64,000 nt of DNA from Betaproteobacteria bacterium Ga0077532 (GTDB taxonomy: Bacteria > Pseudomonadota > Gammaproteobacteria > Burkholderiales > Ga0077523): NCBI GenBank assembly GCA_001464895.1, contig LNEE01000019.1:124001-188000 (forward strand), in the 5' to 3' direction. Of this stretch, positions 7,764 to 19,154 are shown one piece after another. The position numbers and the translations under genes were made by a program. The stretch's first letter is position 1; every line of letters starts with the position of its first letter. The notes under the pieces were generated by a model. It saw only the letters and a list, made by a program, of their open reading frames with translations, did not search any database and was not told the origin of the DNA.

Positions 7764-8927
7764 TCAGGCGGTCGTCACGGGCGGCTGCTGACCCGCCGCG
7801 AGCGCGCGGGAGTTGCGGTCGTCGCGGAACACGATCGGTTTGGTGTTGGCGGGCAACTGCGGCCGCTGGGCCTTTTCAACCTGTTCCGTAATGAGATGGT
7901 GGTGAGGCGAGAGATCGCACACCGGATCCGCGTTCGTGGCGTCGCCTGTGAGCATGAACGCCTGGCAACGGCAGCCGCCGAAGTCCTTCTCCTTCTCGGG
8001 GCAACTGCGGCAAGGCTCCTGCATCCAGGTGTCGCCGCGATACGTTCCGAAGGCGGGAGAGTCGTTCCAGATCCACTTCAGATCGTGGTCGCGCACGTTC
8101 GGGAAGTCGATGCCAGGCAGCATCCGGGCTTCGTGACACGGTAGTGCAACGCCATCGGCGGCGACGTTCAGGAAGATGGATCCCCAGCCATTCATGCAGG
8201 CCTTCGGCCGCGTCTCGTAATAGTCCGGATTCACGAAGTAGATCTTCATCTTGTCGCCGACGCGTTCGCGGAACGCATTGGTCACGGCTTCCGCCCGCTG
8301 CAGCTGCTCGCGCGTGGGCATCAGCTGCTCGCGGTTCTTCATCGCCCACGCGTAGAACTGCGTGTTCGCGAGTTCGACGTACTCGGCGCCGAGCGTCTCC
8401 GCCATCTCCAGGATCTCCTTCGTGTGATCCAGGTTGTGGCGATGCATCACGCAGTTGAACACCATCGGGTAGTCGTACTTCTGGATGAGTTCGGCGGCAC
8501 GCTTCTTCAGCTCGAACGTCTTCGTGCTCGACAGCCAGTCGTTCATCTCCCGCGTGGAGTCCTGGAACGACAGCTGGATGTGGTTCAGCCCACCTTCCTT
8601 GAACGCGGCGATGCGCTTCTCGGTGAGGCCGATGCCCGACGTGATCAGGTTCGTGTAGTACCCGAGCCTGCCGGCCTCCGCGATGATGATCTCGAGGTCA
8701 TCGCGCATGAGCGGTTCGCCGCCCGACAGTCCCAGTTGGACCAGCCCCAGTTCGCGTCCCTGCTGCAGCACCCGGATCCAGTCGTCGGTCGAGAGCTCCG
8801 GGCCGAACTTCGCGTAGTCGATCGGGTTGTAGCAAAACACACAGTGCAGTGGGCACTTGTATGTGAGTTCGGCATTGAGCCAGTGCGGCTTAGGCACCGG
8901 CGCTCGTACGGATCCAGCCGTTTCCAT
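7764..8927 (-). CDS. pqqE: PQQ biosynthesis radical SAM enzyme PqqE
   Basis: PqqE forms the carbon-carbon bond between the glutamate and tyrosine side chains of PqqA, while PqqA is held by PqqD. The 387-residue protein has the radical SAM cluster C25-x3-C29-x2-C32 in KCPLHCVFCYNP, then LSGGEPLMRDDLE, and C-terminal SPASM cysteines (KACMNGW, ALPCHEAR, CRSCPEKEKDFGGCRCQAF). ATG at 8927 is chosen because GGAGG lies just upstream, and it overlaps pqqD by 38 bases. The frame is open further upstream, but only as a shadow of pqqD. It is the last gene of pqqABCDE and is convergent with slyD. Confidence 0.97.
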   Translation of the reverse strand: METAGSVRAPVPKPHWLNAELTYKCPLHCVFCYNPIDYAKFGPELSTDDWIRVLQQGRELGLVQLGLSGGEPLMRDDLEIIIAEAGRLGYYTNLITSGIGLTEKRIAAFKEGGLNHIQLSFQDSTREMNDWLSSTKTFELKKRAAELIQKYDYPMVFNCVMHRHNLDHTKEILEMAETLGAEYVELANTQFYAWAMKNREQLMPTREQLQRAEAVTNAFRERVGDKMKIYFVNPDYYETRPKACMNGWGSIFLNVAADGVALPCHEARMLPGIDFPNVRDHDLKWIWNDSPAFGTYRGDTWMQEPCRSCPEKEKDFGGCRCQAFMLTGDATNADPVCDLSPHHHLITEQVEKAQRPQLPANTKPIVFRDDRNSRALAAGQQPPVTTA

Positions 8928-9192
8928 GAGCCACCTCCAGAAAGTCCACCACGTCCGCCCGCAGGCTGCCCGCCTCGGGATACGCTTGTTCGAGTTCGGC
9001 AACGATCGCGTTCAGGCTGCGCGCGCCGTCGATCCGCTTGAAGATCTCGCCCCCACTGCCGGGCAGTTGCACCATGCCCTCGGGAAACAGGAGTACGTGA
9101 CACTCCTGCGCCGGCTCCCACTGGAACCGGTAGTACTTTGCAATGGCGATGGGCGTGTCGTGATCGAATGGAATGCGCTTCGGGGTAGCCAT
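8890..9192 (-). CDS. pqqD: PqqA-binding chaperone PqqD
   Basis: PqqD is a small RiPP-recognition protein that binds the PqqA peptide and presents it to PqqE. The 100-residue product has the expected winged-helix sequence with YRFQWEPAQECHVLLFPEGMVQLP and then GEIFKRIDG, the strand-turn region that binds the precursor. ATG at 9192 begins MATPKRIPFDHD, two bases after the pqqC stop. The gene's end overlaps the start of pqqE by 38 bases, an unusually long overlap. Confidence 0.94.
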   Translation of the reverse strand: MATPKRIPFDHDTPIAIAKYYRFQWEPAQECHVLLFPEGMVQLPGSGGEIFKRIDGARSLNAIVAELEQAYPEAGSLRADVVDFLEVAHGNGWIRTSAGA

Positions 9193-9194
9193 CG

Positions 9195-9914
9195 TCAGCC
9201 GACCTTCGTTTCGCCGATGCCGTAGTTCACCATCATCGCGTCGCACATGGTCCACAGCACGTCGAGCTTGAACTGCAGGATCTCCAGAGCGCGCTGCTGC
9301 TGCTCCGGCGTGCGGAAATGTTCGAGTGTCACGCGCAGGCCGTGATCCACGTCGCGGCGGGCCTCCGACAGGCGCTTGCGGAAGTAGGCGTAACCCGCCT
9401 GATCGATCCACGGATAGTGCTGCGGCCAGTTCGCCAGGCGTTCCTTGTGGATCTCCGGCGCGAACAGCTCGGTGAGCGACGAGCAGACCGCCTCCTGCCA
9501 GGGACGGGTGCGTGCGAAGTTGATGTAGGCGTCGACCGCGAACCGTACGCCGGGGAGCACGTGCTTGAGCGACGTCACCTCGGTGCGATCCAGCCCGACG
9601 GCGTCGGCCAGCGTGAGCCACGCCTCGATACCGCCCTCGTCGCCCTGGGTGCCGTCGTGATCGATGATCCGTTGGATCCAGAGACGCCGATGATCCCGGT
9701 CGGGCATGTTCGACATCACTGCGGCGTCCTTCACGGGAATCGCCAACTGGTAGTAGAAGCGATTGCAGACCCAGCCGCGGATCTGCGCCTGCGTCAGCTT
9801 TCCGCTGTTCATTGCGACGTGGTACGGGTGGTAGATGTGGTATCGGTCGCCCTTCGCACGAAGCTGTTGCTCGAACTCTTCGCGATTCCACGGGAGATTC
9901 TCGGCGATGCCCAT
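9195..9914 (-). CDS. pqqC: Pyrroloquinoline-quinone synthase PqqC
   Basis: PqqC is the cofactor-less oxidase that performs the final ring closure and eight-electron oxidation giving PQQ. The 239-residue all-helical protein has the family signatures [42 protein letters not shown] and [10 protein letters not shown], which contain the histidines, arginine and tyrosine of the active site. ATG at 9914 gives the normal N-terminus ([17 protein letters not shown]). It lies 17 bases behind pqqB and is followed at once by pqqD. Confidence 0.97.
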
Positions 9915-9931: not shown

Positions 9932-10846
9932 CTACAGTTCGATGTCCATCCCGTCGAACGCGACCTCGATGCCGACTCGGGCCAGTTCGGCGCGCTCGGG
10001 CGAGTCCTCGTTCAGGATCGGGTTGGTGTTGTTGATGTGGATGAGTACCTTGCGCGATGCGCGCAGCGGCTTAAGCACTTCGATCATTCCGCCGGGACCC
10101 GACTGCGGCAGATGGCCGATGTCCCGGGCGCGTTTGCTGGAGATCCCCAACGTCACCATCTCCTCGTTCGTCCAGAACGTGCCGTCGACCATTACGCAAT
10201 CGGCTTCCTCGAGATACGCCACCACGTGCGGTTCGATTTCGCCCAGACCCGGTGAGTAGAACAGCACCTTGCCCGTCCGCGTGTCACGGATGCGCATGCC
10301 GATGTTGTCGCCGATGTGCGGGTTGTGGCGGTGCGGGGAGTAGGGCGGCGCCTTGCTCTTCAGCGGGACGGACGTGAATTCGAGATGCTCGCCACCGACC
10401 ACGGAGAACCGGTTGTCGGGCTCGATGGGCAGCCGGTGCCAGTTCACGCCGCAGTAGTGGCCCAGGATGTTGAAAAGCGGGTTTCCCGTCGTCATGTCTT
10501 CGCGGACCATGTCCGTGCAGAACAACTCGAGCGGTTTGCCCTCCCTAAGCATCAGAAGCCCGGTCGTGTGGTCGATCTGGCCGTCCATGAGGACCACCGA
10601 CCGGATCCCCGTGTCGCGAAGCGCACGCGCAGGCTGAAGGGCCGGAAATCCGCGGATCTGCGCGAGGATGTCCGGGGATGCGTTGAACAGTACCCAGTCG
10701 ACGCCGTTACCGCTCACCGCGATCGAGGACTGCGTGCGAGCACGCGCATTCATCGTGCCTTTGCGCAACCCATCGCAGTTCGGGCAGTTGCAATTCCATT
10801 GCGGGAAACCTCCGCCGGCGGCGGCTCCGAGTACGCGAATCTTCAT
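9932..10846 (-). CDS. pqqB: PQQ biosynthesis protein PqqB
   Basis: PqqB is a metallo-beta-lactamase-fold protein; in work on related enzymes it hydroxylates the tyrosine part of the processed precursor. The 304-residue sequence starts with [19 protein letters not shown] and has the small cysteine motif [17 protein letters not shown] and [11 protein letters not shown] typical of the family. The transcript reaches it through a 211-base spacer after pqqA that contains two strong stem-loops, so its expression is probably set lower than that of pqqA. Confidence 0.96.
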
Positions 10847-11057: not shown

Positions 11058-11129
11058 TCAGCGGTTCGCGATGTACATCGTCACTTCGAAACCGAAACGC
11101 ATTTCCGTGTACGCGGGCTTGCTCCACAT
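11058..11129 (-). CDS. pqqA: PQQ precursor peptide PqqA (copy 1)
   Basis: PqqA is the ribosomal peptide whose glutamate and tyrosine become PQQ. The 23-residue product reads [18 protein letters not shown] then YIANR. The conserved E15-V-T-M-Y19 holds the two residues that PqqE cross-links. The start at 11129 has GGAGG upstream. It heads the minus-strand pqqABCDE cluster, is separated from pqqB by two stem-loops, and differs from the second copy at 16752 by one residue (Ser3 instead of Thr). Confidence 0.97.
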
Positions 11130-11372
11130 GGCAACCTCCAGATGATAGAGTTCTTCGAATTCGCACAGGAGTATTCCCCGGTGGGGACAACCTCTGATCC
11201 TCTAGTGCGGGTCAATTCGGATGCATCGCTTATCGCTGTATGCCGCAATTCTTGGAGGACGGGTCTTACCCAGCCCTCCCTTCGAATCCCGACAGCGCGC
11301 CATCGCTGCATCACTGGTCGTTAGTGTCTTGGATGCGCTCTCCCGTTCACACGAAAAAATCATCAAACTGCG

Positions 11373-11389
11373 CTCATGATTTTCATGAG
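11373..11389 (-). promoter_or_regulatory. 17-bp palindromic operator upstream of pqqA1 and at the tonB start
   Basis: CTCATGA, three bases, TCATGAG. Read toward pqqA1 it is CTCATGAAAATCATGAG, identical in all 17 bases to the element upstream of pqqA2, and the flanking CGC...TTT is also similar. It lies 243 bases before pqqA1 and 11 bases before the tonB start. The likely binder is the LuxR-type regulator at 15949; this is inference. Confidence 0.75.
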
Positions 11390-11400
11390 ATCGGAACGCC

Positions 11401-13209
11401 GTGAGTGACCTCACGCGTGGCGCCCCCACGGCGGCGTCCGATCGCGCCGCTGGCGTGGCGTCTTCGTCGGGTGTTTCGCGATGGTCGGATGAGCATCCGT
11501 TCCTGCTCGCCCTCGCCATATCCCTCGTGGCGCACGTGCTCTTCTTCGTTTTCGGACCGACGGTGAAGGTACCCGTGCCAGCGCCTCGACCCGTGCTCGA
11601 GGTGAAGCTGATCGAAGCGCAGCGCAAGCCACCACCGCCGCCTCCTCCGGTCGTGGAGCCCGATCCACCGAAACCGGTCCCGGTGAAGAGCGCCCGTCCG
11701 ACGGGTGCGAAGCCCGTCGCCGCGAAGAGTCGCGTGGCCGTCGTGCCGCGCCTCGCCGCGGAGGTCGCGCCACCGTCCCAGCCGCTCCCTGCCGTGCAGA
11801 GGGACCAGCGAGAGCAGCCCCAGACACGGGTGCAGGCCGATGTGCCTGTCGCCGCCCGTGCGGACGCTCCGGTGATGCCACGGATCGAGGCGCGTGCAGA
11901 CATCGCGCCGCGACCGATTGCAGAGCTCCCGTCGCCGCGCGTCGACTCGAGACCCCGCGTCGAAGCGGCACCGCGCCCCGACGTCGCTCCCGTCGCGCGC
12001 GCCGAGACCCGTGTCGAGGTGCCGAAGCTCGAGGCGAGGACGTCCGGCGCCACCGATGTTCAACCGATCACGCGTCGCGACGTGCCGGCTGAGCCGAGGC
12101 GCGACGTGACCGTGCCGCGCCCCGACCTTGCGCCCGCGGTGCGCGCGGAGACCCGCGCAGAGGTCCCGAAACTGGAGGCCAGGACGCCCGGCTCTTCCGA
12201 TGTGCAGCCGATCACGCGCCGCGACGTGCCGGCCGAGCCGCGGCGGGAAGTGATTGCCGCCGTCCCGCGCCCCGACCTCGGTGTTCGTCCGCAGGTCGCA
12301 CCGCCTCCCGCGGCCACCGTCCGAGGCGACGTTGCGGGTGACACGATTCCCCAGCCCGCCTCGGTCCGTCCCGCCACACCGACGCCGCGTCCGGAGCCGG
12401 CCACCGAACCCCGCCGGGACGTTGCCATGCAAAGTCCGCCGCCTCCGATTCAGGGTGGTCCGGTCGGTTCCGAGGTCAAGGTGGAGTCCGCTGCCCTACC
12501 GTCCACGGCCCCCGTTCGAGCCGCGACTGCGCGCCCCGAGCCGAGGGCCGACCCTCGCCCGGATCCGGCGGCGGCCTCGCGACCGCGCCTGCCGGACGGC
12601 CCCGAGGCGGCGAGTTCCCCGGTCATTCGCGATGACGCAAGTGCCCCGCGGCCGTCGCTCGCCGCAGCGCCTGCGGTGGCTGAGATCCGTCGGGAGCCGC
12701 CACCCGCACCGAGGCCGCCCACGGACCGTCCGACGGTCGCCCCGGCGCCGCTGTCGACGGCACCCTCGCTTGCACGTACTACGCCGGCGCCGAGTGTCTC
12801 GGGCCCGGCCATCGACCCGAAGCGGGATGCGGCGCCGCGCATCGGCGGGCCGCAGGGTGCCGTCGTTGCAGGAGCGCGGCCGACGCTGGGTGGCGTGCCC
12901 CGTGGCGACGGCTACGATCGCGCGGCTGCGGTGAAGTACGCCCAGAGCGTGGCCACAGAGATCCAGAAACGCATCCGCTATCCGCGCATGGCCGAGCGCG
13001 CCGGTCTGCAGGGGACGGTGGAACTCGTGCTCACGTACGATGCGCGCGGCAAGTTCGTCGAAGCCCGGGTGCGGAAATCCAGCGGGCACAAGTCCCTCGA
13101 CGATGCAGCGCTCGAGGCTGCCGTCGCTGCCATGAGCCGGATGGGGCGCGCGCCGGAGCGCACGCCCGAGCTGTCCATCCCCTACAACTTCAAGATCGAA
13201 GACCGCTGA
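11401..13209 (+). CDS. tonB: Energy transducer TonB with very long Pro/Arg-rich spacer
   Basis: TonB carries proton-motive energy from ExbB/ExbD to outer-membrane receptors. The 602-residue protein has a cytoplasmic lead, one transmembrane helix at residues 34-52 with the functional S41-x3-H45 motif, a polyproline start (KPPPPPPPVVEPDPP) and a roughly 440-residue spacer rich in Pro, Arg and Ala. The C-terminal TonB domain (RIRYPRMAERAGLQGTVELVL) covers about the last 90 residues. The spacer holds two copies of a 48-residue repeat. It is two to three times the usual length. The start is GTG at 11401, just behind the palindrome; GTG at 11455 is possible. It begins the plus-strand side of the PQQ island, so it probably serves the PqqU-like receptor. 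Confidence 0.88.
   Translation: MSDLTRGAPTAASDRAAGVASSSGVSRWSDEHPFLLALAISLVAHVLFFVFGPTVKVPVPAPRPVLEVKLIEAQRKPPPPPPPVVEPDPPKPVPVKSARPTGAKPVAAKSRVAVVPRLAAEVAPPSQPLPAVQRDQREQPQTRVQADVPVAARADAPVMPRIEARADIAPRPIAELPSPRVDSRPRVEAAPRPDVAPVARAETRVEVPKLEARTSGATDVQPITRRDVPAEPRRDVTVPRPDLAPAVRAETRAEVPKLEARTPGSSDVQPITRRDVPAEPRREVIAAVPRPDLGVRPQVAPPPAATVRGDVAGDTIPQPASVRPATPTPRPEPATEPRRDVAMQSPPPPIQGGPVGSEVKVESAALPSTAPVRAATARPEPRADPRPDPAAASRPRLPDGPEAASSPVIRDDASAPRPSLAAAPAVAEIRREPPPAPRPPTDRPTVAPAPLSTAPSLARTTPAPSVSGPAIDPKRDAAPRIGGPQGAVVAGARPTLGGVPRGDGYDRAAAVKYAQSVATEIQKRIRYPRMAERAGLQGTVELVLTYDARGKFVEARVRKSSGHKSLDDAALEAAVAAMSRMGRAPERTPELSIPYNFKIEDR
12001..12279 (+). repeat. Tandem 48-codon repeat inside tonB
   Basis: Two head-to-tail copies, beginning at 12001 and 12145, encode AETRVEVPKLEARTSG and AETRAEVPKLEARTPG, each followed by DVQPITRRDVPAEPRR. 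The second copy has two extra codons. It indicates recent duplication within the periplasmic spacer. Confidence 0.85.
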
Positions 13210-13211
13210 CC

Positions 13212-14171
13212 ATGCCCGACACGCAGGCCTCCCCGCTGTACCCGCCGCTCGCAGCGAACTTCGAAGGGCATCTCGATCGTCCGGGTGGTCATCGTGTGTA
13301 CTTCGAGGAGAGCGGCCGACGCGATGGCGCTCCGGTGCTCTTCCTGCACGGTGGCCCGGGCAGCAGCACCAAGCCGGACCATCGGCGCTATTTCGACCCC
13401 GCCCACTATCGCATCGTGCTGTTCGATCAGCGTGGTTGCGGACGCAGCCTGCCGCTCGGTGGCCTGGCTGAGAACTCCACTGCGCAACTCATCGGTGACA
13501 TCGAGGCCCTGCGCGAGCAGCTGGGCGTCGAGCGCTGGATGCTCTTCGGTGGTTCCTGGGGCAGCACGCTCGCGCTCGCGTACGCCGAGACGCATCCTGC
13601 GCGGGTGTCGAGACTCGTGCTGCGCGGCATCTTCCTCGCCTCGCACAGCGAACTCGAGTGGTACTTCGTCGGCCTGCGCCAGTTCATCCCGGAGGCGTGG
13701 GAGCGTCTCTACGAAGTCGCTCCGGACGCTTCATGGCCGGCGCTCGTCCGGATCTACGAGTCGGCGCTGAATCATCCGGACGCCGCCGTCGCCGCAGCCG
13801 CTGCCGCCCGGTGGAATGCCTACGAGACCGCCATCATGTCGATCGGCGAGACGCAGCCGATGGCACCGGCGACCACCGATGCGCCCGGTGCCATCGCCCG
13901 TGCCCGGGTCCAGGTGCACTATCTCGCGCACGACTGCTTTCTGCGTGACCGCGAACTGCTCGACAACCTTCACCGCATCGCCCATCTGCCTGCGACGCTC
14001 CTGCACGGGCGCATGGATTTCGTGTGCCCGCCCATCACTGCCTGGGAGCTTGCCAGTCGATGGCCAGCTGCTCGCCTCACGTACGTCGAGTCGGCGAAGC
14101 ACGCGTCCTCGCATCCGGCGCTGGAGCGCGCGTTGGTCGAGGCAGCCGATGCTGCGCGCGCAACCGGCTGA
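13212..14171 (+). CDS. pip: Proline iminopeptidase (alpha/beta hydrolase, S33)
   Basis: Family enzymes release N-terminal proline from peptides in the cytoplasm. The 319-residue protein has the oxyanion motif HGGPG at 46-50, DQRGCGRS, the nucleophile S115 in GGSWGST, an acidic residue in HGRMDFVCPP, and the histidine in SAKHASSHP near residue 299. The length and cap helices match S33 Pip enzymes. It starts two bases after tonB and precedes the sensor kinase, so it sits inside the putative PQQ operon. The island lacks a PqqF/PqqG-type protease; whether this peptidase helps process PqqA remnants is speculation. Confidence 0.88.
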   Translation: MPDTQASPLYPPLAANFEGHLDRPGGHRVYFEESGRRDGAPVLFLHGGPGSSTKPDHRRYFDPAHYRIVLFDQRGCGRSLPLGGLAENSTAQLIGDIEALREQLGVERWMLFGGSWGSTLALAYAETHPARVSRLVLRGIFLASHSELEWYFVGLRQFIPEAWERLYEVAPDASWPALVRIYESALNHPDAAVAAAAAARWNAYETAIMSIGETQPMAPATTDAPGAIARARVQVHYLAHDCFLRDRELLDNLHRIAHLPATLLHGRMDFVCPPITAWELASRWPAARLTYVESAKHASSHPALERALVEAADAARATG

Positions 14172-14189
14172 GCCTCCGGACGGCGCCCT

Positions 14190-15929
14190 GTGAGCCTGCG
14201 TTTCCGCATCAACCTGCTGCTCACCGTCTTCACGGTGCTGTTCACCTTGACCGTCGTGAAGATCGTCATCGACGACACGCGTCGCGCCATCCGCGAGGAG
14301 ATGGAAGGCGCCAACCGCGTCACGATGCAGCTCCTCACCACGGTCGTGCGTGACTCCGGCACCATCGCCCGCGAAGGGGATGCCGACGATCTGCTCCTCG
14401 AGTTCCTTCGCGAACTTGGTCGGGTGCGCGCACACGACATTCAATTCTTCGACAGCGACGACAAGCTGCTCTACGCCTCCCCGCCGTCGATCTACAAGAT
14501 CGGGCGCGAGGCGCCCGCCTGGTTCGTGGCGCTGGTGCGACCGCAACTCCCCGTGATCAACCTGCCGGTGCGCGGCAGCAATCTCACGGTCGCCGTGGAT
14601 CCCTCCCGGGCGGTCCTCGATGCCTGGGACGACCTGAAGAACCTCGTGGCTGCGGTGGCCACCTTCCTCGTCGCGACCAATGTCCTGGTGTTCTTCCTGA
14701 TCGGACGGTCCCTGCGGCCAGTCGGCGCGGTGCTGGACGGTCTGCAGCGCATGGAGCGCGGTGAACTGCACGTCCGCCTGCCGCGCTTTCCCGTGCCGGA
14801 GTTCCAGTCCATCAGCCACACCTTCAATGGCATGGCCGACGCGCTGGAGCAGAGTCAGGCCGAGAACCGTCGCCTCGCGCTCATCGCCCAGCAGTCGAGC
14901 GACGCGATCATGATCCACGACGTCGACGGGCGGGTCTCGTACTGGAACCCGGCGGCCGAGCGACTCTTCGGTTTCCCCGCAGCCGACATCGTCGGGCAGT
15001 CCGTGCGGCTCATCACGCCGCCGGAGCGCGAGCACGAGCTGGCGCTGCAGTCCGAGCGCCTGCAGGCGCGGGGTGTCATCGACCATCTCGAGACCCGCCG
15101 CCGCACCCGCGATGGTCGCGAGCTGGACATCGCTCTCGCTGCCGCACCGCTCGTGGATCCCGTCTCGGGCGAAGTCATCGGCGAGATCTCCACGATGCGC
15201 GACATCACCCAGCTGAAGCGCGCGCGCGAGGCCGAGGCCGAGCTTGCGCAGAACCGCCGCCTGACCCAGATCATCCAGGCCAGCCTGGAAGAGGAACGCC
15301 GGGTCATCGCGCGCGAACTGCACGACGAACTCGGCCAATGCGTGACCGCCGTGCGCACGATCGGTACCGTCATCGCCCAGCGCACCGAGGCCACCGACCC
15401 CGACATCCATCGAAGCGCGCGCACCATCGTCGAGGTGGCCGGGCACATCTACGACACCGTGCATGGCATCATCCGCCAGCTTCGTCCCAGTGCGCTCGAC
15501 CATCTCGGCCTGAGCGATGCACTGGAGGAGGCCGTGGGTCGATGGCGCGAACTGCACCCCGACATGATCTTCACGCTCGACGTCCAGGGCGACGTCTCGG
15601 CACTGGGAGAGACCGTCAACATCACCGTGTATCGCATCGTCCAGGAATGCCTCACCAACATCGTCAAACATGCCCGTGCGCGCCGCGCCGAAGTCCAGGT
15701 CCGCCGCGTCGATCGCCGGCTGCTGGTGGAGGTGCGGGACGATGGCCGCGGCCTCACCGAACCCGAGGCCCAGCGCGCGACGCGGTTCGGACTCCTCGGC
15801 ATGCGCGAGCGGGCAGAGGCACTGGGTGGCCAGTTCACGCTCGATGGTGCGCCGGGGCAAGGTCTGCGGGTCTGTGTCGAGCTACCCTTGAACCCAGCGG
15901 TCGCTCCACCGGGCGAGGCCACAGCGTGA
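14190..15929 (+). CDS. MoxY-like sensor histidine kinase (LapD/MoxY-type input, HAMP, PAS, HisKA_3)
   Basis: This is an inner-membrane sensor of the NarX/UhpB class. The 579-residue protein has TM1 at 8-26 and a periplasmic region at about 30-147 resembling the LapD/MoxY N-terminal domain. TM2 spans 148-171 and is followed by a HAMP linker. A PAS domain covers about 225-340 (IMIHDVDGRVSYWNPAAERLFG), then come the HisKA_3 H-box ARELHDELGQ with H378, QECLTNIVKHA and the DDGRGL ATP-binding box. MoxY controls methanol oxidation genes in Paracoccus, so an input linked to alcohols or PQQ is likely. GTG at 14190 is the start, 18 bases after pip; the response regulator follows 19 bases later. Confidence 0.88.
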   Translation: MSLRFRINLLLTVFTVLFTLTVVKIVIDDTRRAIREEMEGANRVTMQLLTTVVRDSGTIAREGDADDLLLEFLRELGRVRAHDIQFFDSDDKLLYASPPSIYKIGREAPAWFVALVRPQLPVINLPVRGSNLTVAVDPSRAVLDAWDDLKNLVAAVATFLVATNVLVFFLIGRSLRPVGAVLDGLQRMERGELHVRLPRFPVPEFQSISHTFNGMADALEQSQAENRRLALIAQQSSDAIMIHDVDGRVSYWNPAAERLFGFPAADIVGQSVRLITPPEREHELALQSERLQARGVIDHLETRRRTRDGRELDIALAAAPLVDPVSGEVIGEISTMRDITQLKRAREAEAELAQNRRLTQIIQASLEEERRVIARELHDELGQCVTAVRTIGTVIAQRTEATDPDIHRSARTIVEVAGHIYDTVHGIIRQLRPSALDHLGLSDALEEAVGRWRELHPDMIFTLDVQGDVSALGETVNITVYRIVQECLTNIVKHARARRAEVQVRRVDRRLLVEVRDDGRGLTEPEAQRATRFGLLGMRERAEALGGQFTLDGAPGQGLRVCVELPLNPAVAPPGEATA

Positions 15930-15948
15930 ACGGGTACAGGGAGCATCC

Positions 15949-16599
15949 ATGAGCGAGCCGATTTCAGTGATGCTGGTCGATGACCACGCCGTCGTCCGCA
16001 TGGGGTTCCGTCTCCTGCTGGAAGGCTCGCCGGACATCCGGGTCGTGGCCGAGGCCGAGAGCGGCGAGGATGCGGTACGTCGCGTGCAGGAAGTGAAGCC
16101 GCAGGTCGTGGTGATGGATCTCTCGATGCCGGGGATAGGCGGGTTGGAGGCGCTCTCCCGCATCCTCGCCCGCGATCCGGCCGCGAAGATCCTGGTGCTG
16201 ACGGCCCACGAGGACGCCATGCACGCCAAGCGCGTGCTGAAGGCCGGAGCGCTCGGCTATCTGTCCAAGCGCAGCGCGCCCGAGGCGCTGATCCAGGCGA
16301 TCCGGCAGGTCATGCAGGGGCGAACCTTCCTGGAGCCCGCCATCGCGCAGGAACTCGCCGTGCAGCAGGTGACGGGCGAGCGCACCCCCGTCGACATGCT
16401 GTCCGAGAAGGAATTCAAGGTGTTCCTGGCGCTCGCCAAGGGGCAGAGCGTCGCCGACATCGCGGAGGTGATGAGCCTGAGCCCCCGGACGATCGGAACG
16501 CACCTCTACAACATCAAGCAGAAGCTGGGTGCCTCCAACTCTGCCGAACTGGCGATCATCGCCATGCGACACGGCCTCATGGATCCCCAGTGGCGGTGA
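15949..16599 (+). CDS. LuxR/NarL-family response regulator (MoxX-like), candidate PQQ regulator
   Basis: The 216-residue cytoplasmic DNA-binding regulator has a receiver domain with acidic pocket D11-D12, phospho-acceptor D57 (VVVMDLSMPG), the switch region VLTAHED and a lysine in YLSKRS. The C-terminal LuxR helix-turn-helix (LSEKEFKVFLALAKGQ, then LSPRTIGTHLYNIKQKLG) covers about 150-210. It pairs with the kinase directly upstream. A 17-bp palindrome begins 12 bases after its stop, and the same sequence lies before pqqA1, so autoregulated control of both pqqA genes is the natural reading. Confidence 0.9.
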   Translation: MSEPISVMLVDDHAVVRMGFRLLLEGSPDIRVVAEAESGEDAVRRVQEVKPQVVVMDLSMPGIGGLEALSRILARDPAAKILVLTAHEDAMHAKRVLKAGALGYLSKRSAPEALIQAIRQVMQGRTFLEPAIAQELAVQQVTGERTPVDMLSEKEFKVFLALAKGQSVADIAEVMSLSPRTIGTHLYNIKQKLGASNSAELAIIAMRHGLMDPQWR

Positions 16600-16611
16600 T
16601 GAGGGATGAGT

Positions 16612-16628
16612 CTCATGAAAATCATGAG
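16612..16628 (+). promoter_or_regulatory. 17-bp palindromic operator upstream of pqqA2
   Basis: CTCATGAAAATCATGAG, identical to the pqqA1 element and in the same orientation relative to pqqA. It ends 123 bases before the pqqA2 ATG. I found no third copy with this half-site spacing in the window. Confidence 0.8.
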
Positions 16629-16751
16629 GCGCCTTTCAGTGTTTTGCGATGGTGCCGGGCGGCTGGATGCGGAGAATACGCATCTGACCGGACGCGGTCG
16701 TACCTCACCTGAAACGCTTTACCAGTTGTTCAACCGAAAAGGAAACGAATC

Positions 16752-16823
16752 ATGTGGACGAAGCCCGCTTACACCGAAATGCGTTTTGGTTTTGAAGTCA
16801 CGATGTACATCGCCAACCGCTAA
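16752..16823 (+). CDS. pqqA: PQQ precursor peptide PqqA (copy 2, orphan)
   Basis: This 23-residue peptide reads [18 protein letters not shown] then YIANR, with the conserved E15-V-T-M-Y19. It matches copy 1 at 22 of 23 residues, while the DNA differs at about 9 of 72 positions, almost all silent, which points to selection on the peptide. AAAAGGAAACG upstream supplies a ribosome-binding site. It stands alone on the plus strand, 5.6 kb from pqqBCDE, with its own palindrome upstream and two terminators downstream, so it is an independently expressed precursor gene that relies on the same PqqBCDE. Confidence 0.95.
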
Positions 16824-16868
16824 TCGCGGCTGGTGGTAGCGCGGCGCCGCGAAAGCGACGTCGCGAGT

Positions 16869-16901
16869 CGAAGGCCGCTTAGGGCGGCCTTCGGCATTTT
16901 T
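16869..16901 (+). terminator. Rho-independent terminator of pqqA2
   Basis: A perfect 10-bp stem (CGAAGGCCGC and complement, 5-base loop) is followed by GCATTTTTA, 45 bases after the pqqA2 stop. Confidence 0.85.
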
Positions 16902-17042: not shown

Positions 17043-19154
17043 ATGCAGGCCCCTCGCGCCCTCCCGCCCCTTGCTCGCTTCCCGCTGCACTGCGTTGCTG
17101 CTGCCGTCGCCTGTGTCTGCGCAGATTTCGCAGCCGCGGCTGACACGGTCCGCACTGCACCCGTCGTCATCACTGCGACGCGGGTGGAGCAATCCAGCCT
17201 GGACGTGCCCGCCGCCATCGATTCGATCGACAGCCGCGATCTCACCGAGGCCCGCCTGCAGGCGAACATCTCCGAGACGATGCAACGTGTTCCCGGGACG
17301 TACGTGCAGAGTCGTGAAACCTACGCCCAGGAACAGCAGATCACCGTCCGTGGCTTCGGGGCGCGCTCTCAGTTCGGCACGCGCGGCGTGCGGCTGTACG
17401 TGGACGGGATCCCGGCCAGCACGCCGGACGGGCAGGGCGGCAGCGGCCTCTTCGACTACAGCTCCGCGAAGAGCATCGAAGTGCTGCGCGGTCCCTTCTC
17501 CGCGCTCTACGGCAACCACTCCGGCGGCGTCGTCCAGATTCTCACGGAAGATGGCCCGCAGACCCCGACCGCCAGCGGCAGCTTCTCGATCGGTAGCTAC
17601 GGCACGCAGCGCTACGGCCTCAAGTTCGGGGGGCAATATGGAGCGGTGAACGCAGTGGCCAGCGGCAGCTATCTCACGACCGACGGCTATCGCGATCGCA
17701 GCTCGTCCGAGCGGTATCTCTTCAACTCGAAGTTCGGGATCAAGCTCGACGACCGCGCCACGCTGACGATCACGGCCAGCTTCCTCGATCAGCCGCTCGA
17801 CCAGGATCCGCTCACGCTGACCGCAGCGCAGGTGGCGCAGAACCGTCGGCAGGCGAACCCCAACGCTGCGACCTTCAATACCCGTCGGAGCCTCGACAAC
17901 AAGCAGGCGGGCGTCGTTTACGAGCGGCAATTGACGGGCGAGGATTCGATCCGTGTGCTGGCCTACGGCGGGCAGCGGAACAATCTGGGTTTCCTCGGGT
18001 TGCAGGGCACACCGCCTACCAGCTCTGGCGGGGTATCTGCACTGTCACGCGACTACGCTGGCCTGGGAGGTCGCTGGACTCGGAACACGACAGTTTTCGG
18101 CAACCAACCGCTCACTGTGACTGCGGGCGCTGACTACGACGCGGCTCTCGAGGACCGTAAGGGGTACGAGAACGTGAACGGCAACATCGGGGTCTTGAAG
18201 CGCAACGAGTTCAATCGCGCCATGAGTTGGGGTACGTATGGACAGGCCGAGTGGACGCCCATTCAGACCGTCACGGGTTTTGTGGGGCTTCGCTACACCC
18301 AGGTCAGCTTCCAGTCGTCCGACTTCTTCATCACTTCTCAGAACCCGAACGACAGCGGGGCTACACGCTTCTCGGCCTGGACGCCGGTGATCGGTGCACT
18401 GGTGCGCGTGACGCCGCTCACCAACATCTACATGAACGCGGGGCGCAGTTTCGAGACCCCGACGCTCATCGAGGTCGCGTATCGCAATGTGGGCAGCGGC
18501 CTCAACCTGGACATCCGTCCGTCGACCAGCAATCACTACGAGATCGGCGTGAAGAGTCTGGTCACCGACAACATCCGGGTGAACGCCGCGATCTTCCAGA
18601 TCTACACGAAGGACGAGATCGTCGTCGACGGCACGCCAGCGATCGGCCGGAACACCTTCAAGAACGCTGGCCGTACCGAACGCCAGGGTCTCGAACTGTC
18701 CGCGACCGGTGACCTCGGTCTCGGCTTCGGTCTGCACGGTGCCTACACCTATCTGAAGGCCACGTTCGCGGAGGCGTTCACCGGTGGTTCAGGCAATGTT
18801 GCTTCCGGTTCGCAGATCCCCGGCGTTCCGAGGAGCTTCGTCTACTTCGACTTCACCTGGCGCGCGCAGAACGATTCAGGCCTCTTCGCTGGCGTGGAGC
18901 ATCGTCGCGCGACCAAGGTCTACGCCAACGATATCAATGCCGACTTCGCTGCCGGGTACAAGGTGACCGACCTGCGTGTCGGCGTGAATCGCAATCTCGA
19001 TCCGTTCGTCGTGCAACTGTTCGCGCGCGTCAACAACATCTTCAGCGAGGAGTACATCGGCGCAGTCGCAGTCAACGGCGCCAATGGACAGTTCTACGCC
19101 CCCGCCCCCGAGCGCAACTACCTCGCTGGCGTCTCCGCCTCGATGAAGTTCTGA
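17043..19154 (+). CDS. pqqU: TonB-dependent receptor closely resembling the PQQ receptor PqqU (YncD)
   Basis: E. coli PqqU (YncD) imports PQQ through the outer membrane. This 703-residue protein has a signal peptide ending near residue 33, a plug domain and a 22-strand-type barrel ending in phenylalanine. Long blocks recall YncD: RGVRLYVDGIPASTPDGQG, EVLRGPFSALYGN, AGRSFETPTLIE, KDEIVVD, FKNAGRTERQG, and near the end NIFSEEYIGAVAVNGANG with the PAPERNY motif. ATG at 17043 follows the pqqA2 terminators. The position beside pqqA2 and in the same island as TonB supports PQQ as the substrate. The family label comes from memory of YncD, not from a search; a siderophore substrate is the alternative. 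Confidence 0.8.
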   Translation: MQAPRALPPLARFPLHCVAAAVACVCADFAAAADTVRTAPVVITATRVEQSSLDVPAAIDSIDSRDLTEARLQANISETMQRVPGTYVQSRETYAQEQQITVRGFGARSQFGTRGVRLYVDGIPASTPDGQGGSGLFDYSSAKSIEVLRGPFSALYGNHSGGVVQILTEDGPQTPTASGSFSIGSYGTQRYGLKFGGQYGAVNAVASGSYLTTDGYRDRSSSERYLFNSKFGIKLDDRATLTITASFLDQPLDQDPLTLTAAQVAQNRRQANPNAATFNTRRSLDNKQAGVVYERQLTGEDSIRVLAYGGQRNNLGFLGLQGTPPTSSGGVSALSRDYAGLGGRWTRNTTVFGNQPLTVTAGADYDAALEDRKGYENVNGNIGVLKRNEFNRAMSWGTYGQAEWTPIQTVTGFVGLRYTQVSFQSSDFFITSQNPNDSGATRFSAWTPVIGALVRVTPLTNIYMNAGRSFETPTLIEVAYRNVGSGLNLDIRPSTSNHYEIGVKSLVTDNIRVNAAIFQIYTKDEIVVDGTPAIGRNTFKNAGRTERQGLELSATGDLGLGFGLHGAYTYLKATFAEAFTGGSGNVASGSQIPGVPRSFVYFDFTWRAQNDSGLFAGVEHRRATKVYANDINADFAAGYKVTDLRVGVNRNLDPFVVQLFARVNNIFSEEYIGAVAVNGANGQFYAPAPERNYLAGVSASMKF

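Follow-up and report, generated by a model that had tools for sequence, protein, structure and literature searches.

To our knowledge, the switching on of PQQ biosynthesis is poorly known outside Pseudomonas and Methylobacterium. MxaY/MxaB and MxcQE/MxbDM regulate methanol dehydrogenase genes. UhpB/UhpA and the NarL-type systems combine a HisKA_3 kinase with a GerE-type response regulator and have inverted-repeat operators, which for NarL are 7-2-7 sites. In Pseudomonas, pqq co-regulation is likely mediated by AgmR, according to a review (PMC12997753); AgmR/ErbR (PedR1), which is of LuxR type and has a histidine kinase with it, is linked there to PQQ-dependent alcohol oxidation and tied to the ped alcohol-dehydrogenase cluster. 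Two-component regulation in the PQQ and methanol field is also represented by MxaY (PMC5018670). The word stem "palindrom-" is absent from the former source, and a word search of the latter found no mention of a palindrome or a binding site.

In this paper we analyse a 64,000-nucleotide stretch of DNA from Betaproteobacteria bacterium Ga0077532 (the window), in which a LuxR-type response regulator (RR) and its presumed partner kinase likewise occur together and the regulator sits with pqqA. A 17-bp palindrome, O1 or the box, precedes both pqqA genes of the window and differs from the operators of UhpB/UhpA and NarL-type systems in its 7-3-7 spacing, its half-site and its targets. From sequence comparison we consider it probable (roughly 0.8) that O1 serves as the high-affinity operator for a two-component system which is dedicated to PQQ supply and activates pqqA. 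We found no published description of the box or its regulator in the open-licence literature, which does not prove absence, and two 15-base operator cores and their reverse forms had no match there.

The pqq locus and its two palindromes

The features of the locus are as follows, in window coordinates.

7764-9002, minus strand: pqqE (TIGR02109)
8890-9192, minus strand: pqqD-like reading frame, assigned from where it lies and from its matches to relatives
9195-9914, minus strand: pqqC (TIGR02111)
9932-10846, minus strand: pqqB (TIGR02108)
11058-11129, minus strand: pqqA1, 23-aa PQQ precursor peptide, ATG at 11129 (PF08042, 41.2 bits)
11323-11328, minus strand: candidate -10 element of pqqA1, GACACT, from comparative position
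11350-11366, minus strand: candidate O2 of pqqA1, TTGATGATTTTTTCGTG, degenerate (8 of 14 consensus positions; position from comparative enrichment)
11373-11389, minus strand: O1 of pqqA1, CTCATGAAAATCATGAG, predicted strong operator (motif and comparative evidence)
11401-13209, plus strand: TonB-family protein, divergent from pqqA1 (domain profile)
13212-14171, plus strand: prolyl aminopeptidase (TIGR01249, 308 bits against a cut-off of 259.75)
14190-15929, plus strand: HAMP-PAS-HisKA_3-HATPase sensor kinase (HK), presumed partner of the RR (domain profiles)
15949-16599, plus strand: RR, NarL/FixJ (LuxR-type) response regulator, proposed binder of the box (PF00072, PF00196)
16612-16628, plus strand: O1 of pqqA2, CTCATGAAAATCATGAG, predicted strong operator (motif and comparative evidence)
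16635-16651, plus strand: candidate O2 of pqqA2, TTCAGTGTTTTGCGATG (5 of 14 consensus positions, weak on its own; position from comparative enrichment)
16672-16677, plus strand: candidate -10 element of pqqA2, GAGAAT, closer to the box by one base than in the consensus
16752-16823, plus strand: pqqA2, 23-aa PQQ precursor peptide, ATG at 16752 (PF08042, 42.8 bits)
16867-16895, plus strand: terminator-like stem after pqqA2
17043-19154, plus strand: PqqU-like TonB-dependent receptor (NF041535, 583 bits)

The two PqqA peptides are nearly identical and both score above the PF08042 gathering cut-off of 21.1 bits. pqqA1 leads pqqBCDE, while pqqA2 stands alone, and the terminator-like stem behind it suggests that it is transcribed alone. 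The RR has a receiver domain (PF00072, 105.8 bits) and a C-terminal GerE domain (PF00196, 56.6 bits), both over cut-off, and beside it, as expected of a NarL/FixJ regulator, lies a HisKA_3 kinase (PF07730, 39.3 bits; HATPase_c, 54.9 bits). Its top-scoring NCBIfam model is NF007018 (UvrY/SirA/GacA), yet at 207.7 bits it falls under the equivalog cut-off of 280; the ErdR model NF041830 gives 63.7 bits against a cut-off of 390. NF041535 is the best model for the receptor, whose 583 bits lie below the equivalog cut-off of 1200, and the protein is therefore termed PqqU-like only.

An earlier note on this DNA had reported an identical 17-mer in the same orientation before both pqqA genes, the second copy 12 bases behind the response regulator gene, and had judged a chance origin very unlikely. 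All of this was borne out. The RR stop codon has its last base at 16599, and 16612 is the first base of the box. The first and last 7 bases of O1 are exact reverse complements, so that orientation is set by the AAA spacer only, and this reads AAA toward pqqA in both copies. From the end of O1 to the ATG there are 243 bp at pqqA1 and 123 bp at pqqA2, and the pqqA1 copy also lies between that gene and the divergent TonB gene, whose start, as listed, is 11 bp away. The window held no further match at up to 3 mismatches beyond both sites read on the opposite strand, and shuffled windows gave a mean of 0.05 matches.

A scan of the genome (4.93 Mb, about 90% complete) for CTCATGA-N3-TCATGAG returned exactly two sites, each upstream of a pqqA, so the exact motif is not scattered genome-wide without link to PQQ genes. 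With up to 2 mismatches there were 2 exact sites, none with 1 mismatch and 20 with 2, against 6 matches for a backwards control pattern. All 20 two-mismatch sites, read in 1.2-kb pieces, fall inside stop-free frames of 139-405 codons; in G+C-rich DNA, chance too makes such frames common.

Distribution of the box in related genomes

In 300 genomes of the order, holding 140 pqqA copies, the exact box was found at 48 sites and the control pattern at 2, among the matches listed. Thirty-eight of the 48 precede a pqqA by less than 400 bp (Fisher test by genome, p 8.7e-16). An exact box accompanies 40 of the 140 pqqA copies, and a further 61 have one with 1-2 mismatches no more than 480 bp away; at 2 mismatches or fewer the remaining 39, two of which run off contig ends, have none. 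Single-base shuffles of the upstream regions gave a mean best match of about 4.8-5.9 mismatches. The box stands 87-243 bp before the pqqA ATG, and its spacer is AAA in 70 of 101 sites. The 60 bp before it are unconserved at 61 near sites (no column above 0.35 bits); 40 far sites show a few upstream columns above 0.35 bits, chiefly A at -3 and -2. The palindrome is a conserved element before pqqA in many related bacteria and no local accident. Outside the order, the window-type box was seen in none of the 45 pqqA loci read (one locus per genome, 48 of 49 genomes, with L218 and L265 left out); one genome outside the order that was read separately, G575, carries a box at 2 mismatches and, at a distance of 1.6 kb, an RR of 60% identity.

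The other 10 exact sites have no pqqA that close behind them. Two of these precede pqq operons, one at 634 bp from pqqA (G046) and one before an apparently decayed pqqA with intact pqqBC (G171:C60), and a third precedes a PqqU-like receptor (G177). The sites of G001:C102 and G006:C25 precede a DUF1800-type gene, the former falling within a stop-free frame of 1464 codons; at 1e-20 DUF1800 has no match in the genome of the window. The G172 site resembles a terminator stem, those of G018, G052 and G202 lie inside long stop-free frames, and that of G002:C39 shares bases with the end of a CRP-like frame and lies ahead of another gene.

The earlier note had also looked to PQQ alcohol dehydrogenase genes for support of a PQQ regulon, and this was not borne out: no dehydrogenase locus of this genome has the box. 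At the eight PQQ alcohol dehydrogenase loci the best box-like match has 2-5 mismatches, and the only one with 2 is on the downstream side of its gene, inside a stop-free frame. A PQQ-dehydrogenase regulon finds no support in this genome.

Predicted promoter layout and direction of control

The earlier note had remarked on similar bases after the two palindromes. These coincide with a degenerate second operator, O2, visible only in comparative data. Among 87 non-redundant sites, O2 is enriched at offset +7 (z 13.4, against shuffles that preserve base composition only), and offsets +4 (z 7.2) and +10 (z 6.8) are raised too. In family f53 the enrichment is at +6 with a changed specificity (z 11.7, 31 sites). 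In the near class, O2 matches on average just 5.4 of 14 positions. A -10-like element follows 45-50 bp downstream of the box, and the two window pqqA promoter regions scanned contain no full sigma-70 consensus. We infer that this order, O1, then a degenerate O2 at +6 or +7, then a -10-like element, is the layout of an activator-dependent promoter.

In the proposed mechanism the kinase would phosphorylate the RR, and an RR dimer would occupy O1 with one monomer per 7-bp half-site and the A/T-rich 3-bp spacer between them. A second dimer would bind O2, 22-23 bp downstream and overlapping the -35 region, and together they would switch on pqqA from a promoter with a -10-like element and without a -35 consensus. 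Both precursor genes, pqqA1 with pqqBCDE and the stand-alone pqqA2, would be served by the site. The signal may, as a guess, be the substrate of a PQQ enzyme or the periplasmic demand for PQQ.

Some NarL-type regulators act as repressors, and the RR, acting at the box, might likewise repress pqqA and also the RR operon. The first window copy does stand 11 bp before the start listed for the TonB gene, and where pqqA is divergent the box lies between it and a peptidase-HK-RR operon in 8 of 11 loci. If transcription starts about 7 bp after the -10-like hexamer, however, O1 would be centred near -65 and O2 near -42, which is activation geometry, and the lack of a sigma-70 consensus is also as activation would have it. 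Repression thus appears unlikely, the direction of control being predicted from geometry alone.

The proposed regulator and its operator

That the box is the operator of the adjacent LuxR-type regulator, as the earlier note proposed, gains support from its genomic specificity, its association with pqqA, its co-occurrence with the RR and a joint change of helix and operator. Among 62 pqqA genomes, RR (at least 57% identity) and box agree in 55: both are present in 45 and neither in 10. Five have the RR without a box within 2 mismatches (G061, G105 and G181, all of family f2, and G268 and G279), and in two the box comes with a best RR that is more distant (G120, 55%; G224, 54%). Box and RR occur together in 15 families at an identity of at least 55% and in 14 at 57% or more. 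In 80 loci with RR relatives, a box with up to 2 mismatches was present in 26 of 26 with pqqA and in 0 of 54 without. The box tracks the neighbouring NarL/FixJ-type RR and not pqqA as such.

It is nevertheless conceivable, if quite improbable, that the palindrome is the operator of a different transcription factor, the RR having simply been inherited along with the PQQ genes. The two box genomes with RR matches of only 54-55% would fit this, and in many genomes the kinase-RR pair lies in the same island as the PQQ genes, so that linkage alone would give co-occurrence. The box, however, also follows the RR when the two are unlinked: in family f26, which includes Methylobacillus, no pqqA on the contig of the RR is closer to it than 29 kb, but 22 of the 31 pqqA copies of 8 genomes carry the box. 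A 7-3-7 inverted repeat, moreover, is fitting for a GerE dimer.

The co-change in f53 also speaks for the RR. The recognition helix is THLY in 95 of 96 aligned RR rows, the exception being G461 of f53, and THHT in 11 of 11 RR-bearing loci of that family. Its operator is changed symmetrically to CTCAGGA-N3-TCCTGAG; 47 of 48 pqqA upstreams (30 of 47 pqqA genomes) are closer to this type than to that of the window, and one is a tie. Helix L-Y to H-T thus goes with operator T:A to G:C; the f53 rows are not independent because the co-change is one evolutionary event. The single aligned f2 regulator (L296, G012) has THLY although most f2 boxes are degenerate. The f53 pair offers a case ready to hand for studying the DNA-recognition code of GerE domains.

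Methylophilaceae carry 3 to 12 pqqA copies (PMC4109929), and the puzzle of these copies gains a concrete handle because 22 of the 31 in f26 have the predicted operator. It is perhaps an even bet that beta- and gammaproteobacteria share a hitherto undescribed two-component system almost solely for PQQ supply. It would control pqqA, including the scattered stand-alone copies of methylotrophs, and in one genome a PqqU-like receptor, but not the dehydrogenases; cells would tune output by the number and strength of regulated pqqA promoters, and regulator and scattered operators would form a natural example of a joint shift in DNA specificity. Named isolates of Methylobacillus, Methylophilus, Pseudohongiella and Panacagrimonas encode the RR, and a defined candidate operator and regulator make a direct test possible in cultured relatives.

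The element could instead act as RNA, as an attenuator or stability element in the pqqA leader, since it could fold into a 7-bp stem with a 3-nt loop and its distance from the ATG is a possible leader position. Pair counting makes this very improbable, for changes in one half-site are not compensated in the other: the 101 sites give 707 pair cells, of which 618 show no change, 73 are broken by a change, 10 are wobble pairs and 6 are kept by two-sided change, and A3 is combined with T15 in 4 sites, where 6.2 would be expected. The -10-like element, too, lies downstream of the box. That the two copies are identical only through a recent, functionless duplication of the pqqA region, as the shared 17-mer and near-identical peptides of the window might suggest, can be dismissed almost entirely, being contradicted by a box conserved over 15 families when the 60 bp preceding it are not.

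The box before pqqA

The 17-bp palindrome (the box) and the genes around it in the window are as follows.

ATG 11129, minus strand: pqqA1, leading pqqBCDE
11373-11389, minus strand: box, CTCATGA-N3-TCATGAG
Between the boxes, all plus strand: TonB-family gene, prolyl aminopeptidase (13212-14171), HAMP-PAS-HisKA_3 kinase (14190-15929) and NarL-type response regulator (RR, 15949-16599)
16612-16628, plus strand: box
ATG 16752, plus strand: pqqA2, stand-alone, with the RR gene on one side and a PqqU-like receptor on the other
16867-16895: terminator-like stem of 13 pairs, downstream of pqqA2

The earlier note had claimed that an identical 17-mer occurs twice, and both sites are indeed exact, with nothing else in the window at three or fewer mismatches. 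Across the genome (4.93 Mb, 89.8% complete) the 14 specified bases gave two exact matches, none with one mismatch and 20 with two; a control pattern gave 6 matches in the same genome with two mismatches allowed. All 20 two-mismatch sites, read in 1.2-kb pieces, lie within stop-free frames of 139-405 codons and therefore look like background.

Within the window's genus, 11 of the 12 genomes examined carry an exact box. Among 300 genomes of the order, 62 of which carry pqqA, we found 48 exact sites in 31 genomes; 26 of these 31 have pqqA (Fisher p 8.7e-16, which overstates the evidence because the genomes are related). Seen from the gene, 40 of 140 pqqA copies have an exact box at most 400 bp away; for the other 100, 480 bp were scanned and the closest match differed at one position (36), two (25), three (7), four (10) or at least five (20), the upstream regions of 2 being cut off by contig ends. 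The most frequent variants affect the third base from either end, with A in place of C3 or T in place of G15. A set of distinct sites, 101 in all, comprises 31 exact boxes, 43 one-mismatch and 27 two-mismatch boxes; they lie 87-222 bp from the ATG (median 123), and 70 of them have the spacer AAA. This set excludes the pqqA1 site of the window itself, which is 243 bp from its ATG and was probably removed as a near relative's same-context repeat. A divergent PqqA-like peptide (QW.DPA[FY]CDIRLGFEVTAYVYVR) is an extra copy in G001:C270, G049:C31 and G075:C38 (loci L118, L137 and L146); two of the three lack a box, and L146 has a two-mismatch match.

The box is nearly confined to PQQ supply. A motif scattered without a PQQ link, which would have spoken against the earlier note, was looked for, and what was found is that both exact sites of the genome are at pqqA and that 38 of the 48 in the order have their nearest pqqA start within 400 bp downstream. 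The 10 others include 2 that precede pqq operons, 1 before a PqqU-like receptor, 2 before a DUF1800-type gene and 4 that look like chance; the tenth, of G002:C39, is described below. The proposed placement before PQQ alcohol dehydrogenase genes was not borne out: the corresponding model has 8 matches in the genome, 4 of them above cut-off, and none of the 8 has a box upstream.

Several individual sites were read. In G177:C4 (L295 4321-4337) an exact box is 94 bp upstream of a PqqU-like receptor (539 bits, under the cut-off), kinase and RR lie within about 4 kb of it, and pqqA was not found in this 85% complete genome, which is possibly a PQQ importer without synthesis. In G171:C60 (L298 5593-5609) the exact box precedes intact pqqBC and an apparently decayed pqqA, with four more pqqA copies elsewhere. 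Two species of the window's genus (L106 3069-3085, L107 3028-3044) have an exact box roughly 120-130 bp upstream of the DUF1800-type gene, PF08811 being scored on the L106 protein only. The exact box of G002:C39 (L111 3038-3054) has ATC as its spacer; it overlaps a CRP-like frame at the frame's end, and a small CXXCH-motif gene is next.

Promoter layout

A second, poorer operator copy (O2) begins at +7 after the window-type box, where 87 non-redundant sites match on average at 5.9 of 14 positions compared with 3.5 in composition-only shuffles (z 13.4); near-class sites average 5.4 and far-class sites 6.8, and offsets +4 and +10 are likewise raised (z about 7). The window's O2 matches at 8 of 14 positions for pqqA1 and only 5 for pqqA2. 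In the family of genome G461, whose changed operator is CTCAGGA-N3-TCCTGAG (G-type), O2 begins at +6 and favours the G-type consensus (6.7 vs 4.7 of 14; 31 sites). A -10-like nAnAAT is found at +45-50 in the window type and +44-49 in the G-type, so that O2 and the -10 element keep a constant spacing. No sigma-70 consensus was found in the window's two pqqA upstream regions; this, the O2 copy and the -10-like element together suggest that the pqqA promoter would be activator-dependent and bound by two RR dimers. Repression from the box, instead of activation, is possible.

Regulator and operator across genomes

With RR called present at a best match of at least 57% identity (from the list at E<=1e-60) and the box at two or fewer mismatches, the 62 pqqA genomes comprise 45 with both, 2 with the box alone, 5 with RR alone and 10 with neither, one of which (G093) could not show a box because its pqqA is at a contig end. 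By family, with the RR cut at 55% and each family counted in every class it displays, the numbers are 15, 1, 3 and 9. In family f26, which is probably Methylophilaceae, RR is at least 29 kb from any pqqA on its contig, and a box is present at 22 of 31 pqqA copies (8 genomes). Among 49 pqqA genomes outside the order, RR of at least 55% identity occurs only in G575 (60%) and G461 (56%), and window-type boxes (two or fewer mismatches) were found at none of 45 script-read pqqA loci, one per genome; G575, read separately, has ATCATGAAAATCATGAA upstream of pqqA, with RR 1.6 kb off.

The pqqA upstreams of G461 have in common a different palindrome, CTCAGGA-AAA-TCCTGAG. Its family has 57 genomes, 47 with pqqA, and in 48 upstreams sampled there (37 loci, 30 of the 47 pqqA genomes) 47 are closer to the G-type, 1 is a tie and none is closer to the window type; 29 match the G-type with two or fewer mismatches. 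RR is also present in 11 of the 37 loci (55-57% identical), all 11 with the helix THHT and not THLY, which is found in 95 of 96 RR alignment rows (redundant rows included), the sole exception being G461. The altered positions correspond to L186 and Y187 in the window RR, and the equivalent segment in the closest LiaR/VraR-type solved structures is H-V-S-N. In NarL, residues adjoining this helix segment contact bases. The change of helix and operator is one evolutionary event, yet it hits the protein and many scattered operators together. That a different factor binds the box is improbable, as such a factor would need to track both RR and the RR helix. A stem-loop RNA is not supported because the half-sites vary without compensation. 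In family f2 (L123, L124, L141, L175) the boxes are degenerate, several ending ACGTAG instead of CATGAG, and the single aligned RR keeps the usual THLY helix despite this.

In Pseudomonas, pqq co-regulation is likely via AgmR, according to a review (PMC12997753) from which the word 'palindrome' is absent. Methylophilaceae have 3-12 pqqA copies (PMC4109929), and the relevant passages name no regulator for them; a word search of PMC5018670 gave no motif. The box core sequences had no match in the open-licence literature searched. We rate the system as a NarL-type regulator plus its predicted operator, the range of targets being uncommonly narrow.

Genes around the boxes

Window proteins were mapped onto 80 RR-relative loci and 11 loci fetched by place. 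In a recount of the 80, the box (two or fewer mismatches) is present in all 26 pqqA-bearing loci and in none of the 54 that lack pqqA. Fifteen of the 26 are beta-type islands with, where complete, the order pqqC/B-pqqA1, box, (TonB)-peptidase-kinase-RR, box, pqqA2, often with the PqqU-like receptor next; in the remaining 11, which include Pseudohongiella, Panacagrimonas and a Ferrovum bin, the box separates pqqA and its operon from a divergently oriented kinase-RR pair, and the peptidase is present in 8. Many beta and gamma relatives retain the prolyl aminopeptidase next to the kinase-RR-pqqA island, and the enzyme might have a role in PqqA processing; pqqF above cut-off was not found in the genome (best score 68 vs 320 bits). 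Locus L012 (CAMDKM010000047.1) is titled Bordetella parapertussis, a name that looks doubtful, since it is a metagenome bin whose island resembles those of environmental betaproteobacteria.
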